NCBI GenBank assembly: GCA_029959295.1 | Contig: JASCOH010000012.1 | Location: 1 to 64,000 of the forward strand | DNA length: 64,000 nt | Source of the DNA: Flavobacteriaceae bacterium PS02334 | GTDB lineage: Bacteria > Bacteroidota > Bacteroidia > Flavobacteriales > Flavobacteriaceae | Reading direction: 5' to 3' | Part shown: positions 22,220 to 35,622 of the stretch, piece by piece | How the letters are laid out: each line of letters opens with the position of its first letter | Numbering within the stretch: position 1 is the stretch's first letter | Made by a program: the position numbers and the translations under genes | The notes under the pieces: model-generated | Database searches by the model: none | What the model was told of the DNA's origin: nothing | What the model saw: the letters and a program-made list of their open reading frames with translations, nothing else

Positions 22220-22681
22220 TTACATTACTGTTACGAAATTACCGCTTCCGTTGTCAGCTAATGTGTATCTTCCTGCTCTGATTGTGTATCCAGAAGCTAA
22301 TCCAAGTTGTTTAGCAGTGTCAGCCGGAAGTACATAATCTTCTTCAACAGTAATTGTGTTAGATCCAAAATGGTTTCTTACTTGTTCAAGTCCTCTTTGG
22401 TTCGCTTCTAATACTAAATTTCCTCTTTCATTTGTAGTTGCTTGAAAAAAGCGGAATTCTATAGTAATTGTTACGCTGCAAACTCCAAAGCCTCGGCAGT
22501 CACGTGAACGTCTTCCAAAATCAACATCGATAGACACTCTAACTCGCGGATTAGTTGCGTCTTCAATATTTGTAATGTTTTCAGTTTTTACTTCGTTGAT
22601 TTGGTTTTCAACTATTTCAGAAGCGTTAGCGTTAAAGCTGAACAAAGCGATTGCCATAAGGCTGTAGAATAAATTTTTCAT
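22220..22681 (-). CDS. Secreted protein, tandem paralogue A
   Basis: 153 residues, signal peptide MKNLFYSLMAIALFSFNANA. The mature protein has FGRRSRDCRGFGVC with two cysteines (a probable disulfide). From FFQATTNERG to RYTL, 64 residues match the neighbouring paralogue exactly. The region between the signal peptide and that block differs. No known family. It is upstream of the small membrane protein. Confidence 0.75.
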   Translation of the reverse strand: MKNLFYSLMAIALFSFNANASEIVENQINEVKTENITNIEDATNPRVRVSIDVDFGRRSRDCRGFGVCSVTITIEFRFFQATTNERGNLVLEANQRGLEQVRNHFGSNTITVEEDYVLPADTAKQLGLASGYTIRAGRYTLADNGSGNFVTVM

Positions 22682-22772: not shown

Positions 22773-23237
22773 TTACATTACAGTTGCGTAAGTTCCGCTT
22801 CCATTGTCTGTTAATGTATATCTTCCTGCTCTGATTGTGTATCCTGAAGCTAATCCAAGCTGTTTAGCAGTATCAGCTGGAAGTACATAATCTTCTTCAA
22901 CAGTAATTGTGTTAGATCCAAAATGGTTTCTTACTTGTTCAAGTCCTCTTTGATTTGCTTCTAATACTAAATTTCCTCTTTCATTTGTAGTTGCTTGAAA
23001 AAAACTGATTTCGAGAGTAGCTGTTACGCGGCAAACTCCAAAGCCATTGCAGTCACGTGAACGTCTTCCAAAATCAACTGTGATGGTCAATCGAACTCGG
23101 GGATTAGTTGCGTCTTCAATATTTGTATTGTTTTCAATTTTTGTACCCTCGTTAATTGGGTTTTCATTGATTTCAGAAGCGTTAGCATTAAAGCTGAACA
23201 AAGCGATTGCCATAAGGCTGTAGAATAAATTTTTCAT
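22773..23237 (-). CDS. Secreted protein, tandem paralogue B
   Basis: 154 residues, with the same signal peptide as paralogue A. It shares FGRRSRDC-x-GFGVC and the identical 64-residue block, with synonymous DNA differences in it. It differs in residues about 25-75 and in the last ten residues (DNGSGTYATVM against DNGSGNFVTVM). This shows a tandem duplication that is old enough to have silent changes but is under selection for the C-terminal block. Confidence 0.75.
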   Translation of the reverse strand: MKNLFYSLMAIALFSFNANASEINENPINEGTKIENNTNIEDATNPRVRLTITVDFGRRSRDCNGFGVCRVTATLEISFFQATTNERGNLVLEANQRGLEQVRNHFGSNTITVEEDYVLPADTAKQLGLASGYTIRAGRYTLTDNGSGTYATVM

Positions 23238-31321: not shown

Positions 31322-34300
31322 ATGCTAGTAAACGATATCGATCCCATAAGAAAAAAAATAGTTGTAAAGATCCACAACTATGACAAGCACATCAACTTCA
31401 GTGCTTTGAAAATCAGACAGCAACTGCTTTCGCATGCCGAATTTGAATTTTTTTGGCGCATTTCAGACAAGATAACTACAGAGCCACTGGAAGATTTCGA
31501 ATCTTTCAAGAAATTCTTTGGGGCAGAGGTTATGTTTTCCTTTTTCAATTTCTTGACCCAAAAGGAAATGCTCTTTAAAGGACTTATCGACAGCATGGAA
31601 ATCAGGAACCAAGACGGGGCGAGTGCGGGTTTTTTGGTCAAGGGGCACAGTCACACGATTGTGATGGAAGATTTGAAATATAGTCGTATGCATCTGGGGA
31701 GAACGTTGCAGGAAATTGTAGCCGAAAGCCTTAAAGGGCAGGCCGTGGGCATGTGGGAAATTGAAGATATTGCGCCAGCCAATAACCAAATAATTGCGTC
31801 AAGCCTGCAAAGCAATGAGCACGGCTGGAAATATATCTGCCGACTGGCGAAAAATTATGGCGAGTGGCTTTACTGGGACGGGACGAGGCTGCAGTTTGGA
31901 AGGCTTAAGGATTCAAAAATGGTGCTGGTGAATGGCATTCATTTGAAAAGTTTTGGGATGGGAAGCCGGCTTGTGAGCAACAAATCTTCCTATTCAGGGT
32001 ATGATTATGAGGCTGGCGCTTTGATCGAAGGGCAATTAGAAAAGACGGATGATAATTTCAATGACAGCCTGATGAATACTTCATTGAATGCGCAGAAATT
32101 GCAATTTATCAGGAAAATGGATCGGGAAATTCCTTTTCATAGCTATAATTCGAATGCGCAGCATCAGTCAGATATTGACCAAATGAATAAGCTGGATGTG
32201 GCAGGAAAGGCGGCGGCGATGGTGACTTATAGTGTGGAAAGCCATGTTCCGGTTTATGTCGGGCATATTGTGACGGTAAAAAATAAGGCGGTCGATCATG
32301 TGATGATCGTGACAAAATCAGAAATCACGAGTATTGGTGTTGGGAATTTGGTTTGCAAGTTTGAAGCGATTCCTGCGGACGCTAAGCATCCGCCTTATAC
32401 AAATTCGGAGAAACATGGAAAGGCGAAGGCACAGCCAGCGGTGGTTTTGGAAAATAATGATCCAGCAGGAATGGGACGCGTGAGAGTGAAATATTTTTGG
32501 GGAAAATCTGATAATGAGAGCGACTGGCTGCGTGTGCAGACGGTGCATGGCGGAAGCGGAAAGGGTTTTTATTTTATTCCTGAGATTGGCGAGGAAGTTC
32601 GGGTTTGTTTTGAGGGCGGTAATCCGGATAGGGGTTTTGTCAGCGGGAGCAATTTTAATGGGAAGGAGATCAGCGGGTATTCAGATTCTGGGAATAATGT
32701 AAAGGCAATCCATACGCGGAGCGGGACGAAGATTTTATTGAATGACAGTGAAGGAAGTATTTTTATTGAAGACCCGAGTGGTAATACTTGGCTGATGGAC
32801 GGAAAGGGGAATATTGGGGTGAATGCGCCGAATGATATCAGCATGAATGCTGGGAATGATATTGATATTACTGTTGGCAACAACATGACTTTTAATGTTG
32901 GTAATAAGGCAATGCTGAATATTATGCAAATGATGCTTGTCAACACGCCTTTGCTGACGCAGATGGTTTCTGAAATGTTTCATACTCAGGCTGGAAAGGC
33001 ACTTATCAATTCTGAAAATGAAATCAGAATGGAAAGCCCTGAAATGTATGTGGCAGGACAAAAGAAACTGTTTCTGCATAGTGACGAGAGTGCAGTAATG
33101 AATTCTAAAGGAGTTACTGAAGTAAAGGGCAAATCAGGCAATAAATTAAGTAATACACCGACAAAGTATAAGAAAGTGCCTATTTGGATGGATTCAAGAT
33201 GTGTCATTAAATTTAGACCTAAAGATAATTGGACAGGCGAATTCGGGTTTGACTGGATGCGACTTAATGATACAAAGCTTAAGGGAGATGCTTCTTCTAA
33301 TGTATATAAGACAATTTCTTTAGATTACAACAAGCTAAAAGGCGTTTACCAGCAAAGAGTCTTTAAAAAGAAATCAGGTACAAAAACAATTATAGTAACT
33401 TATTTTATTCCATGGCTATGCTTGTTCCCAAAAGAAGTAACAAAAAATGGTAAGCAAGTTGCTACAACTTTTGGCAATACTACCGCTAAACTGCATTTGA
33501 CAATTACGATAGAAAATGAAGAGCCGATTCGAATAGAAATGGACTATGACAAAACTTTATTCAAATTAGACAAGGATTTATTGACTCCTAAAACCAAAGG
33601 CACGCATAGCGTAGAATTGACAATAACATGTCTTAAAGAATTTGATGTTGACAAAGATATCAAAGCGGTTTCTGTTTATAAAAACGCAAAAGGCGAAGAA
33701 GAAAAAGCACTTGCTGGAAAGATAATGGTTGTAAAAAACAAACAACGCTATCAGCAAAAGGTTGTTATTGTACAGGTTAGCACAAATTTAGGTAACGGAC
33801 TAAGAGAAGCTAGGCCAGTAGGAAGGAAGACTATGTTACAAAGATTCTTAAGACAAGCATTAGTCGAACCTAATTTTCAAACCCTAACTTTAAACTTAAG
33901 CTTAAATAGAAATCCGGTGACTAGAGTAGTAACCAACCTAAGAACTAATTTTAATAATATTGCCAATGCTACTGGTGGTAATATTCCAAATGGAGCAACT
34001 GATGCCATACAGGATTTCCTCAATGCGGAGCTTTATAAAAAATATGGCACAAGTTATCAAAAAGCATATAAGATATATTTTATTGATGAAGAAGCTGGAG
34101 ATGGGGGAGGTGGCTTAGGACTATATGGCAGAGCCTATGGAGTTCCTTCAGTTGCAAGATCTGTCGTAGTATATAGATCAGGATTTAGCGATACTACAAT
34201 TGCCCACGAAACGTTGCATGCAATGGGCCTTTCCCATCCTTTTCATGGAGGCACCCATATGTTTTCAAGAAGTACTACTGATAATATAATGGATTATTCA

Positions 34301-34390
34301 GATATTGAGGCAAGTCCTGCCATACCAGTAGTACAAACGTGGAAATGGCAATGGCCAGTTATCTATCCAAATGTTGAAACTGAAAAATAA
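31322..34390 (+). CDS. vgrG: T6SS VgrG spike with C-terminal metzincin-type protease domain
   Basis: 1022 residues. VgrG trimers tip the type VI secretion needle. The N-terminal gp27-like part (1-370) is followed by a gp5-like OB fold from about 371 (NDPAGMGRVRVKYFWG, WLRVQ, GKGFYFIPEIGEEVRV) and the beta-helix needle with GTKILLNDSEGS and NAPNDISMNAGNDIDIT (to about 613). The extension (615-1022) has an unrecognised linker (PIWMDSRCVIKFRPKDNWTG), a beta region and a protease signature: HETLHAMGLSH at 962-972 (HExxHxxGxxH) and Met-turn NIMDYS at 988-993. So it is probably a specialised toxin-bearing VgrG. G+C falls from about 50% in the core to about 30% in the extension. No tss core genes are in the window. 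Confidence 0.9.
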   Translation: MLVNDIDPIRKKIVVKIHNYDKHINFSALKIRQQLLSHAEFEFFWRISDKITTEPLEDFESFKKFFGAEVMFSFFNFLTQKEMLFKGLIDSMEIRNQDGASAGFLVKGHSHTIVMEDLKYSRMHLGRTLQEIVAESLKGQAVGMWEIEDIAPANNQIIASSLQSNEHGWKYICRLAKNYGEWLYWDGTRLQFGRLKDSKMVLVNGIHLKSFGMGSRLVSNKSSYSGYDYEAGALIEGQLEKTDDNFNDSLMNTSLNAQKLQFIRKMDREIPFHSYNSNAQHQSDIDQMNKLDVAGKAAAMVTYSVESHVPVYVGHIVTVKNKAVDHVMIVTKSEITSIGVGNLVCKFEAIPADAKHPPYTNSEKHGKAKAQPAVVLENNDPAGMGRVRVKYFWGKSDNESDWLRVQTVHGGSGKGFYFIPEIGEEVRVCFEGGNPDRGFVSGSNFNGKEISGYSDSGNNVKAIHTRSGTKILLNDSEGSIFIEDPSGNTWLMDGKGNIGVNAPNDISMNAGNDIDITVGNNMTFNVGNKAMLNIMQMMLVNTPLLTQMVSEMFHTQAGKALINSENEIRMESPEMYVAGQKKLFLHSDESAVMNSKGVTEVKGKSGNKLSNTPTKYKKVPIWMDSRCVIKFRPKDNWTGEFGFDWMRLNDTKLKGDASSNVYKTISLDYNKLKGVYQQRVFKKKSGTKTIIVTYFIPWLCLFPKEVTKNGKQVATTFGNTTAKLHLTITIENEEPIRIEMDYDKTLFKLDKDLLTPKTKGTHSVELTITCLKEFDVDKDIKAVSVYKNAKGEEEKALAGKIMVVKNKQRYQQKVVIVQVSTNLGNGLREARPVGRKTMLQRFLRQALVEPNFQTLTLNLSLNRNPVTRVVTNLRTNFNNIANATGGNIPNGATDAIQDFLNAELYKKYGTSYQKAYKIYFIDEEAGDGGGGLGLYGRAYGVPSVARSVVVYRSGFSDTTIAHETLHAMGLSHPFHGGTHMFSRSTTDNIMDYSDIEASPAIPVVQTWKWQWPVIYPNVETEK

Positions 34391-34395
34391 AATTT

Positions 34396-35229
34396 ATGAA
34401 GAAAATAGTAATTACATTTATGATTCTAACTTTATTTAGTTGTCATTCACAACAAAAAGATAATGGAAGATTTATTACGAAACAAAAAAATGTTAGCCAT
34501 TTGTATAATCAATTAAATAACAAGGATATGGAAAAGTTTGATATAAAAGCATTTAATAAAAACATGAAATATGACGATGCAGGAGAACCTACATACAACA
34601 ATTCATATACTTTATCAGATGGAAAAATTATTGATGAATTTATATTAGATGATGGTTATGGGCGCTTTATAATCTCAAGTAATTCATTATTTAAAGCTTA
34701 TATGGAGTATGATGAAAATGGAATAATAAAATTAAAAGGACAATATTTTAAAAATGGAGATTTTAGATTAGGAATATGGCATGAGTATGATCAAACTGGC
34801 AAAACAATAAATACAATAGATTATGATAAACCGTTCGTTTATACTTTTGAAGATATAGCAAACTATTGTGAAAAGAATAATATACCTTTTAGTGATATAG
34901 TTTTAAGAAATTTTAATGATGAAAAAACCAAAGAATGCTATTGGGAAATCCAGTATGACGGTACTTATGAAAACAAAACAGGGCAAATAACTATAAGGAT
35001 TGATGGAAAAACAGGAGAAATAATTTTTGTAAAAAGGCTGAGTGGTTTTACTTCATTGCCTGATGGAACTGGCAAAATAGGAGTTTATGAAACACTTTAC
35101 GAGAATTCACAGGAAAACAAAAACCATGTGATTTACAAAAACTACCAAGGGAAAGACTACACCCAAGAAGAATGGAAAGCCTTTGAACAAAAAATGTGGG
35201 AAGAACATCAGAAGAAAAATAGAAAATAA
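34396..35229 (+). CDS. Lipoprotein, candidate immunity protein to the VgrG protease
   Basis: 277 residues with lipobox LFSC (Cys16). The mature part has MORN-like repeats (GIIKLKGQYFKNGDFRLGIWHEYDQTGKTI). It starts five bases after vgrG, is strongly AT-rich like the toxin end, and abuts the PAAR-like gene. T6SS effectors that act in the periplasm commonly have a cognate envelope-anchored immunity protein encoded next to them. The immunity role is inferred from location only; I know no family match. Confidence 0.65.
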   Translation: MKKIVITFMILTLFSCHSQQKDNGRFITKQKNVSHLYNQLNNKDMEKFDIKAFNKNMKYDDAGEPTYNNSYTLSDGKIIDEFILDDGYGRFIISSNSLFKAYMEYDENGIIKLKGQYFKNGDFRLGIWHEYDQTGKTINTIDYDKPFVYTFEDIANYCEKNNIPFSDIVLRNFNDEKTKECYWEIQYDGTYENKTGQITIRIDGKTGEIIFVKRLSGFTSLPDGTGKIGVYETLYENSQENKNHVIYKNYQGKDYTQEEWKAFEQKMWEEHQKKNRK

Positions 35230-35580
35230 ATGCCACACAAAATCACACAAGCAAAACTCACCTGCAATCAAGGCACAAAACCAAGCGACTTAAAAGTTAC
35301 CTCGCAAAATTTTGCCACTATTGACAGCAAAGCGATTGCCACAGAAAAAGACAAAAAAGCCAATGAAAACATTATGCCTTTTGGGCAGTGCAAATTAAAA
35401 CCTTCTTCGTCGGGTTATCTTCCCTGTGTTCCCGTTCCTGTAATTTGGCAGGAAACTGCAAAACTTGATGAGATTAACGGATATAAGATTTTGCTTGACA
35501 CTTCCACCTGCCAATGTTCAGTAGGCGGTAAAATTTCTGTGGAAGATAAAGGATATAGTGAAAAACATGAGATTGAATAA
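35230..35580 (+). CDS. DUF4280 PAAR-like protein
   Basis: 116 residues. The pattern of conserved Cys and Gly (TCNQGTKPSDLKVTSQ; IMPFGQC; GYLPCVPVPVIW; STCQCSVGGKISVED) matches the DUF4280 PAAR-like family, whose members sharpen T6SS or related contractile spikes. Cysteines are at 12, 54, 66, 94 and 96. The start codon follows the lipoprotein stop with no gap (TAAATG), so the three genes form an operon. This supports the T6SS assignment of the cluster. Confidence 0.85.
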   Translation: MPHKITQAKLTCNQGTKPSDLKVTSQNFATIDSKAIATEKDKKANENIMPFGQCKLKPSSSGYLPCVPVPVIWQETAKLDEINGYKILLDTSTCQCSVGGKISVEDKGYSEKHEIE

Positions 35581-35582
35581 AT

Positions 35583-35622
35583 TAAAAATCCCAATTGAAC
35601 TAAATCAATCGGGATTTTTTAC
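35583..35622 (+). terminator. Terminator of the T6SS spike operon
   Basis: AAAAATCCCAATTGA and TCAATCGGGATTTTTT pair with one mismatch; a T run follows on the plus strand. Confidence 0.8.

Follow-up and report, generated by a model that had tools for sequence, protein, structure and literature searches.

Organization of the locus and its T6SSiii background

The window (the whole 64,000-nucleotide stretch of DNA analysed, from Flavobacteriaceae bacterium PS02334) carries three genes on the + strand, followed by a terminator-like repeat. The features are:

31322..34390, +, VgrG-LINK-metzincin-type peptidase fusion (complete ORF, 1022 aa)
31322..33136, +, VgrG part, residues ~1-605, OB domain 371-443 (Pfam Phage_base_V; 30% identity to the T6SS-cluster VgrG)
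33182..33757, +, LINK domain, residues ~621-812, boundary approximate (family alignments)
33236-33262, +, GEFGFDWMR motif of LINK (family alignments)
33758..34387, +, metzincin-type peptidase domain, residues ~813-1022, boundary approximate (PDB profile match, profile-profile comparison, family alignment)
34205..34237, +, HETLHAMGLSH zinc-binding motif, residues 962-972 (ORF translation, 94-row alignment)
34283..34300, +, NIMDYS Met-turn, residues 988-993, with M990 and invariant Y992 (ORF translation, 94-row alignment)
34396..35229, +, probable immunity lipoprotein, 277 aa, lipobox Cys16 (lipobox motif, recurrent downstream gene, co-variation)
35230..35580, +, DUF4280 (PAAR-like) spike-tip protein, 116 aa (Pfam DUF4280, PF14107, E 1.9e-23)
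35584..35619, no strand assigned, terminator-like inverted repeat just past the DUF4280 gene (inverted-repeat scan)

The N-terminal part of the fusion matched Phage_base_V at residues 371-443 (Pfam, E 2.4e-20), and residues 8-561 aligned with the VgrG that this genome encodes in its T6SS cluster (30% identity, E 2.3e-75). A preliminary description, made from the sequence alone, had taken residues 1-613 for a canonical VgrG. Both homologies uphold VgrG, but not "canonical": Phage_GPD remained under its gathering score (Pfam, E 6.2e-5) and the NCBIfam VgrG models gave sub-cut-off matches only, so the VgrG part is divergent. An enzyme domain placed behind a VgrG N-terminus is the architecture of a specialised ("evolved") VgrG effector. 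No N-terminal secretion signal was evident by eye on the fusion protein, and searches for phage, plasmid or viral carriage returned no match.

The lipoprotein gene starts after a gap of 5 nt. The product of the third gene scored 83.6 bits with PF14107 (cut-off 26.3) and belongs to DUF4280, which is described as PAAR-like (PMC5349215). The scan lists the repeat at 35584..35619 on the - strand, and its + strand reading ends in a T run too; terminator-like sites in the region numbered 4, with 2.7 expected from shuffles.

A genome search for T6SSiii core genes, proposed in the preliminary description, found TssC (PF17541, E 1.9e-238) and a T6SS cluster with TssN (E 2.2e-91), a gp25-type baseplate protein, VgrG and a ClpB-type ATPase, presumably TssH. 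In this cluster a VipA-like TssB fell below the cut-off (E 8.4e-4), and the ORFs taken as TssF, TssK and TssG had no Pfam matches. The canonical sheath model PF05943 had no match in the genome, whereas PF17541 did. TssC of T6SSiii was encoded by 21 of the 23 genomes with LINK (absent from two) and by 29/323 genomes without it, the Fisher p of 6.5e-18 being inflated by related species. The T6SSiii genes in the same genome and the evolved-VgrG architecture support the T6SS effector reading first put forward from the sequence.

LINK and the metzincin-type peptidase

Between VgrG and peptidase lies a conserved domain of ~190 residues, LINK. It had been noted as a new, unrecognised linker (615 to ~800); it remains unrecognised, and family alignments reveal a real conserved domain. 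An HExxHxxxxxH motif was in frame with LINK in 28 of 30 LINK loci, and the other two correspond to a contig end (L215) and a degenerate copy (L204). In FIX-domain effectors, too, a conserved domain separates VgrG or PAAR from the toxin, and a T6SS is encoded in >96% of FIX-bearing genomes (PMC6688995). FIX is described there as accompanying various toxins, whereas LINK was found only with the metzincin-type peptidase; given the same-frame motif in those 28 loci, we rejected LINK as a general delivery marker of the FIX kind.

In the translation and in the alignment of relatives, HETLHAMGLSH (residues 962-972) reads as HExxHxxGxxH and NIMDYS as a Met-turn, M990 lying 18 residues past H972, as initially reported. 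The three His and the Glu of the motif, and Y992 (the Met+2 Tyr), were invariant in 94/94 rows, and because of this invariance the motif is not due to chance. Position 969 was Gly in 77/94 rows. Position 990 was Met in 84/94 rows (L in 8, I in 1, V in 1), although 63 of the 94 rows came from scan patterns containing the Met-turn, in which this position is conditioned. In the 31 rows from outside that pattern scan the H, E, H, H and Y were again invariant, and Met was present in 21.

When the family profile was compared to the PDB, metzincins ranked first (myroilysin, E 6.4e-5; astacin, E 0.0017). In profile-profile comparison M43 scored 97.1 and the other three metzincin groups 92.0, 91.3 and 88.9, the astacin and BF0631 groups being single sequences, while the gluzincin M1 control scored 57.5. 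Both hallmarks of the metzincin superfamily, HExxHxxGxxH/D and the Met-turn, are present, and the initial metzincin assignment agrees with the motifs and with the PDB ranking. The further suggestion of a pappalysin-like enzyme fared less evenly: M43 is the highest of the four groups, but the Pfam M43 model (PF05572) had no match to the fusion protein at E up to 1, and matched 2 of 26 modules weakly (best E 0.0093). No Pfam peptidase model reached its gathering score on the fusion protein, which lay under the cut-off for M43, reprolysin-like M12B, astacin/myroilysin and TIGR03952 (BF0631 family). Among NCBIfam models the last matched the family best (24/94 members, best E 1.5e-6). All these families share the active-site motif and the Met-turn; in contrast to them, the peptidase described here rides on a spike. 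GH31 glycosidase matches (L034, L061; L062 by position only) were judged to be chance. The motifs and profile matches support a peptidase of metzincin type; its three His would sit on one zinc, and the domain would be proteolytically active.

Alternatively, the peptidase might be a processing enzyme that frees LINK or the VgrG tail after delivery, LINK being the actual toxin or a binding part. It would fit with LINK never being found without the peptidase at intact, long-enough loci, and metallopeptidases process toxins of another injection system (Zhang et al., 2012, PMC3482391). The processing domains described there are, however, N-terminal to the toxin, whereas the peptidase of this fusion occupies its very C-terminal end; a PDB profile search found no solved structure resembling LINK (best E 0.56), and a free protease explains lipoprotein immunity at least equally well. 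We consider a processing role unlikely.

The downstream lipoprotein and the carriers of the module

The lipobox of the window's lipoprotein is MKKIVITFMILTLFSC, and a lipobox-like Cys was present in 71/74 downstream proteins (both by motif only). Of 77 loci outside the building set of the lipoprotein profile, 55 had a homologous lipoprotein gene as their next downstream gene; in the remaining 22 the next gene did not match, four of them having no called gene there. Within 3.5 kb downstream 137/357 ORFs matched the profile (profile-building proteins and duplicate loci included) vs. 5/582 elsewhere. MORN-type proteins are widespread, so some of these matches may be generic. Several loci carry the lipoprotein gene in tandem copies.

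Module and lipoprotein distances were correlated (r 0.73, 74 pairs; maximum of 2000 permutations 0.11). At the 27 VgrG-linked loci r was 0.70 between module and lipoprotein and 0.18 between module and VgrG (partial 0.69), a control that addresses only in part the confounding of such correlations by shared ancestry. These data suggest that the lipoprotein is probably the immunity protein, MORN-like and possibly with a PepSY-like C-terminus.

The 68-row lipoprotein profile had as its best PDB match a PepSY/M4-peptidase propeptide protein (E 4.9e-4; its two stretches alone E 0.48 and 8.4), with an uncharacterised protein a close second (E 8.6e-4). The similarity is limited to the last hairpin, near residues 195-215, where hhalign gave 41% over 17 columns (unrelated controls <1%). 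PepSY was matched weakly by 4/22 members at E up to 1 (best 0.002) and by 7/68 relatives at E up to 0.1 (PF03413, best 0.0037); Pfam PF03413 had no match on the window's own lipoprotein. The lipoprotein might therefore protect without PepSY-type inhibition of the active site, by shielding or mimicking a periplasmic substrate or by binding LINK: the PepSY similarity is weak and confined to one hairpin, and MORN-like repeats, which are not known to inhibit proteases, are the commoner match (40/68 members). The best PDB match of the profile, on the other hand, speaks for PepSY; we give protection without PepSY an appreciable chance, somewhat below even.

We collected 97 further full-length LINK plus peptidase modules (identical copies removed), all from Bacteroidota and spanning many genera. 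The carrier was fused in 41 (TssD (Hcp) 21, VgrG 15, DUF4280 5) and was the next gene upstream in 37 (VgrG 27, DUF4280 8, TssD 2); 19 had none fused or directly upstream, some being cut by contig ends. On the module tree (79 labelled rows) the carrier class switches at least 13 times. Matches occurred in 90/395 genomes, mostly short ones on the HExxH stretch of other metzincins, so that counting all 90 as module carriers was rejected; near full-length matches were found in nine (G000, G001, G154, G352, G498, G552, G601, G616 and G628). Relatives of the pair across Bacteroidota, on several parts of the spear, suggest an undescribed family of weapons against rivals. The preliminary description did not mention the lipoprotein gene, the third gene (PAAR-like) or the breadth of the family across several carriers.

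A candidate antibacterial protease and its probable antidote

We propose that the three genes make up a small VgrG island belonging to the Bacteroidota T6SSiii. VgrG, probably tipped by DUF4280, would bear at its C-terminus a toxin that combines LINK with a zinc protease of metzincin type, and contraction of the sheath would drive the spike into a neighbouring cell. The fusion would in this way be secreted by the T6SS, delivered and kill its target, with the protease cutting at least one envelope protein there, most likely a periplasmic one. In the periplasm of sister cells the lipoprotein would bind and block the protease and so confer protection; speculatively, its PepSY-like C-terminal part could inhibit the protease in trans, much as a propeptide does. 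The toxin-immunity cassette would move among VgrG, Hcp/TssD and DUF4280 carriers, or the toxin would travel as cargo encoded separately. The gene order, the homologies, the conservation of catalytic residues, the genome's T6SSiii, the recurring carrier and lipoprotein linkage and the co-variation are computed observations. Overall, we consider it likely that this VgrG island represents a new family of T6SSiii effectors, antibacterial proteases with lipoprotein immunity.

An effector directed against eukaryotes, whether protists or animal hosts, with the lipoprotein not an immunity protein, appears very improbable. Host-associated genera are among the family members, and for VgrG2b an action on both cell kinds has been proposed (PMC6899460), but lipoprotein genes that lie alongside, co-vary and often come in tandem typically mark antibacterial effectors, and the family is distributed over many genera.

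The antibacterial mode of action is best read as resembling that of VgrG2b/PA0261 (Tpe-Tpi) of Pseudomonas aeruginosa, which, as described, shares a C-terminal HExxH zinc peptidase on VgrG, an immunity gene directly downstream and periplasmic action (presumed here); one relative's immunity protein is a lipoprotein, and relatives are VgrG-fused or separate cargo (PMC6899460). In contrast, VgrG2b is reported with thermolysin-like structural homologues and HEXXH (PMC6899460), whereas the protein here has HExxHxxGxxH, a Met-turn and the Met+2 Tyr, with LINK as an additional conserved domain and T6SSiii as its system, and its immunity protein, going by descriptions, looks different from PA0261. A single-sequence PDB search gave no match at E up to 1, and no VgrG2b-named chain was among the 60 of 134 PDB profile matches listed.

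Tox-MPTase1-5 and PVC-metallopeptidase are also zincin-like polymorphic-toxin domains, some from Bacteroidetes, and one zincin-like domain of that set was suggested to use T6SS; they differ in that their description gives HExxH and, as a rule, Rhs repeats (PMC3482391). The Tox-MPTase Pfam models did not match the fusion protein and were absent from the matches tabulated for 26 modules. In Listeria Mtz/Tim a metzincin gene likewise precedes a gene for a lipoprotein (TIMP-like) with a proposed protease-inhibitor fold, but, going by its description, this is a secreted Gram-positive pair outside T6SS whose lipoprotein is cleaved and released (PMC8235301).

Titles and abstract openings in the open-access literature revealed no T6SS metzincin effector, although an earlier description is possible, and a search of the same literature for a PepSY immunity protein of type VI secretion found no paper. 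To our knowledge, few Bacteroidota T6SS effectors are understood. If the proposal is true, it would add a whole toxin-immunity family to the Bacteroidota T6SS and account for VgrG, Hcp and DUF4280 fusions that lack annotation in genomes of Flavobacterium, Chryseobacterium, Aquimarina, Pedobacter, Prevotella and Porphyromonas. Two searchable signatures, the GFDWMR domain and the lipoprotein, would be gained, and the question of which envelope protein a T6SS protease cuts would become directly testable in laboratory strains. More tentatively, and with doubts prevailing, undescribed metzincin-type toxins of T6SSiii might occur throughout the phylum, with lipoprotein antidotes based on the PepSY module that gives peptidase propeptides their inhibitory action, and accompanying the toxin from one Hcp, VgrG or PAAR-like carrier to another; the "safety catch" of a protease would then have become a detachable antidote.

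A VgrG island with a metzincin-type peptidase

The putative toxin ORF lies in a compact set of genes:

31322-34390, + strand: VgrG-LINK-peptidase ORF (1022 aa, by translation), LINK being a conserved domain of ~190 residues between VgrG and peptidase
34396-35229, + strand: lipoprotein gene (277 aa), starting 5 nt past the toxin ORF
35230-35580, + strand: DUF4280 (PAAR-like) gene (116 aa; Pfam, E 1.9e-23), with no gap from the lipoprotein gene
35584-35619: terminator-like repeat, directly past the DUF4280 gene

Given this repeat, and genes on the opposite strand flanking the set on both sides, the VgrG-LINK-peptidase, lipoprotein and DUF4280 genes look like a single isolated VgrG island. GC content shifts sharply along the operon (31322-35580), from 43% in the VgrG part to 28% in the lipoprotein gene. 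The full values (VgrG part 43.2%, LINK 33.5%, peptidase 37.8%, lipoprotein 27.6%, DUF4280 39.0%, window 35.7%) give the kind of patchwork that a swapped cassette would be expected to show. Elsewhere in the window, two adjacent and very similar small secreted proteins of 153 and 154 aa (22220-22681 and 22773-23237, - strand) appear by eye to be a recent tandem duplication.

The preliminary description had proposed a VgrG with a C-terminal HExxHxxGxxH signature and a Met-turn, and this was borne out. The N-terminus of the ORF matched Phage_base_V in Pfam (E 2.4e-20) and Phage_GPD under the gathering score (E 6.2e-5), residues 962-972 read HETLHAMGLSH, and NIMDYS contains Met990. The top Pfam match of the peptidase part was Reprolysin_4 (E 0.014, under the cut-off), and a phmmer search of the PDB with the last 413 residues gave no match at E up to 1. 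A profile from 94 of 98 aligned modules (LINK plus peptidase; L055, L106, L157 and L185 were omitted as long or divergent) placed metzincins first among its PDB matches: myroilysin (E 6.4e-5), astacin (0.0017), ADAMTS-5 (0.0036), pappalysin-1 (0.0049) and ulilysin (0.024). A ribosomal protein (E 0.081) was among the best 60 of the 134 chains matched. H962, E963, H966, H972, T986 and Y992 are invariant in the 94 rows, with Gly at position 969 in 77, Met at 990 in 84 and Gln at 1010 in 93. For 31 rows the Met-turn pattern played no part in retrieval; among these, the positions of H, E, H, H, Y and Q still show no variation, and Met occurs in 21.

Profile-profile probabilities for the peptidase part were 97.1 with M43, 92.0 with reprolysin-like, 91.3 with BF0631 and 88.9 with astacin, vs. 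57.5 with the gluzincin M1 control. Since BF0631 and astacin were each represented by one sequence, and E-values lack calibration when there is a single target, we read this only as pointing to a metzincin, perhaps nearest M43, in line with the fold first suggested. The region ahead of it, which had not been recognized, remained distinct as LINK: it resembled no solved structure (best E 0.56) and scored below 1 against each of the same five targets.

Spread and carriers of the module

Of 299 genomes in the family, 22 had a match to the C-terminal 413 residues; GH31 enzymes among the weak genome matches were dismissed as chance. Modules were gathered from the neighborhoods of matches and from public genomes, where a scan based on a 5-row alignment yielded 76 loci. 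Counting as full-length those that begin by profile position 12 and extend to at least position 390, there were 104, or 97 once seven identical copies were removed and near-identical ones kept. In the tally of these 97, 34 of them without a named class, hosts were Flavobacteriaceae, Weeksellaceae, Sphingobacteriaceae, Chitinophagaceae and Cryomorphaceae, together with Prevotellaceae, Bacteroidaceae, Tannerellaceae, Porphyromonadaceae and Dysgonomonadaceae.

Carriers were called with small purpose-built profiles, and Pfam confirmed examples, namely five TssD proteins and one DUF4280 protein. The module is fused to TssD in 21 cases, VgrG in 15 and DUF4280 in 5; in others the carrier gene immediately precedes the module on its own strand, no more than 400 nt away (VgrG in 27, DUF4280 in 8, TssD in 2), and 19 of the 97 have no carrier in either position. 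Seven modules behind a separate DUF4280 gene (L128, L151, L156, L157, L166, L168, L181) have 247-291 residues ahead of LINK, which gave no match to the carrier profiles. On a tree of 98 modules including that of the window, 79 with a carrier label, carrier class switches at least 13 times; when mode is scored along with class, the minimum is 23 changes vs. a shuffled mean of 43.8; carriers are thus swapped, though not freely.

Stand-alone modules in which 50-75 residues precede LINK number 32, and 29 of them share, by eye, a ~55-residue N-terminus. The same segment heads proteins with other, unrelated C-termini, among them a Tae4 amidase (E 3.5e-11), Het-C (6.1e-36), DUF3289 (1e-17) and a weakly lipase-like one, and is borne by a 399-aa protein in the T6SS cluster of the window's own genome (L033:2865-4061). 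The name Tae4 denotes a family of amidase effectors of the T6SS, and this ties the stand-alone metzincins independently to T6SS. The segment is a candidate signal for the delivery of cargo by T6SSiii. It was also seen at L102, L132, L135, L154, L160, L176 and others, many bearers lying directly behind VgrG.

The lipoprotein partner

The window lipoprotein has, by eye, the lipobox LFSC; a lipobox was found by motif in 71 of 74 downstream homologues, and C-x-x-Q in 58. At 77 of 79 independent loci there was at least 500 nt downstream (two lacked room), with a next downstream gene called in 73. A profile built from 22 such lipoproteins matched that gene in 55 of the 77. Of the 357 ORFs lying up to 3.5 kb downstream it matched 137, a count that includes profile-building proteins and duplicate loci, vs. 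5 of 582 elsewhere, two of the five being overlapping module neighbors missed by the rule (L111, L128). At L163, L179, L159, L048 and L100 the toxin gene is followed by four or five immunity-like lipoprotein genes in tandem (five copies in L163; L048, L159 and L179 have four), as if stocked against related toxins; the toxin gene is broken in L159 and L179.

Module and lipoprotein distances are correlated (r 0.73, 74 pairs; maximum of 2000 permutations 0.11). VgrG served as a control at the 27 loci where it too was present at sufficient length: there module and lipoprotein correlated at 0.70 (partial 0.69; at most 0.26 in 1000 permutations), vs. 0.18 for module-VgrG and 0.19 for lipoprotein-VgrG. 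Toxin and lipoprotein therefore move as a pair, and the carrier VgrG apart.

Pfam found MORN_2 in 40 and PepSY in 7 of 68 lipoproteins (best PepSY 0.0037), and in 15 and 4 of the smaller set of 22 (best 0.002); the window's own lipoprotein matched neither. In the PDB, the 68-row profile matched a PepSY/M4 propeptide protein best (E 4.9e-4, or 0.48 and 8.4 for the two stretches taken singly), followed by an uncharacterized protein (8.6e-4) and a beta-galactosidase (0.0046), both aligning to the N-terminal part, and lower down by YpmB (0.19) and the metalloprotease Mcp02 (0.9). With hhalign, the C-terminal part reached 41% over 17 columns against 12 of 14 PepSY stretches, and below 1% against the M43, M1 and reprolysin controls. 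Because M4 peptidases are inhibited by PepSY domains in their propeptides, we propose as a hypothesis that the lipoprotein may be a propeptide-like inhibitor, the antidote working as a propeptide in trans.

Secretion system and proposed action

The ORF had been proposed to be a T6SS effector, and T6SSiii genes were found in the genome (4.59 Mb, 69 contigs). The sheath model PF05943 had no match, and T6SSiii TssC was detected at E 1.9e-238. The cluster, on contig C55, includes TssN (E 2.2e-91), a baseplate protein of gp25 type (8.4e-8), an ATPase of ClpB type, a second VgrG, a VipA-like TssB (8.4e-4, under the cut-off) and, by eye, two TssD-like ORFs; its candidate TssF, TssK and TssG ORFs had no Pfam match. 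It also encodes a 1283-aa DUF4280 protein (L033:5304-9155), perhaps a cell-wall effector, which matches CHAP and glycoside hydrolase 19 weakly and in each case under the cut-off.

Among 346 genomes drawn from the order, LINK occurred in 23 and TssC in 50: both in 21, LINK only in 2, TssC only in 29 and neither in 294 (Fisher p 6.5e-18, a value inflated by related species). In the two genomes where LINK occurs but TssC gave no match, the modules, L055:7383-13421 (G154) and L202 (G873), could be delivered by another injection system; that of G154 lies at the end of a 2012-aa protein without a recognized carrier.

Acidic residues past the lipoprotein Cys are a surface-export signal. Among 71 lipoproteins, 42 have none in the six positions past Cys, 21 have one and 8 have two, so this signal is not general. 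The lipoprotein nature of the probable immunity protein points to a periplasmic site of action. The metallopeptidase domain of Pseudomonas aeruginosa VgrG2b is described as toxic in the periplasm of E. coli, not in the cytoplasm, and bound by the immunity protein PA0261 (PMC6899460). By analogy with this pair, the most likely action of the toxin would be proteolysis of envelope proteins in the rival's periplasm. Module and lipoprotein make up a real and coherent family of probable T6SSiii effector-immunity pairs, of a broadly known type but apparently undescribed in the open-access literature.
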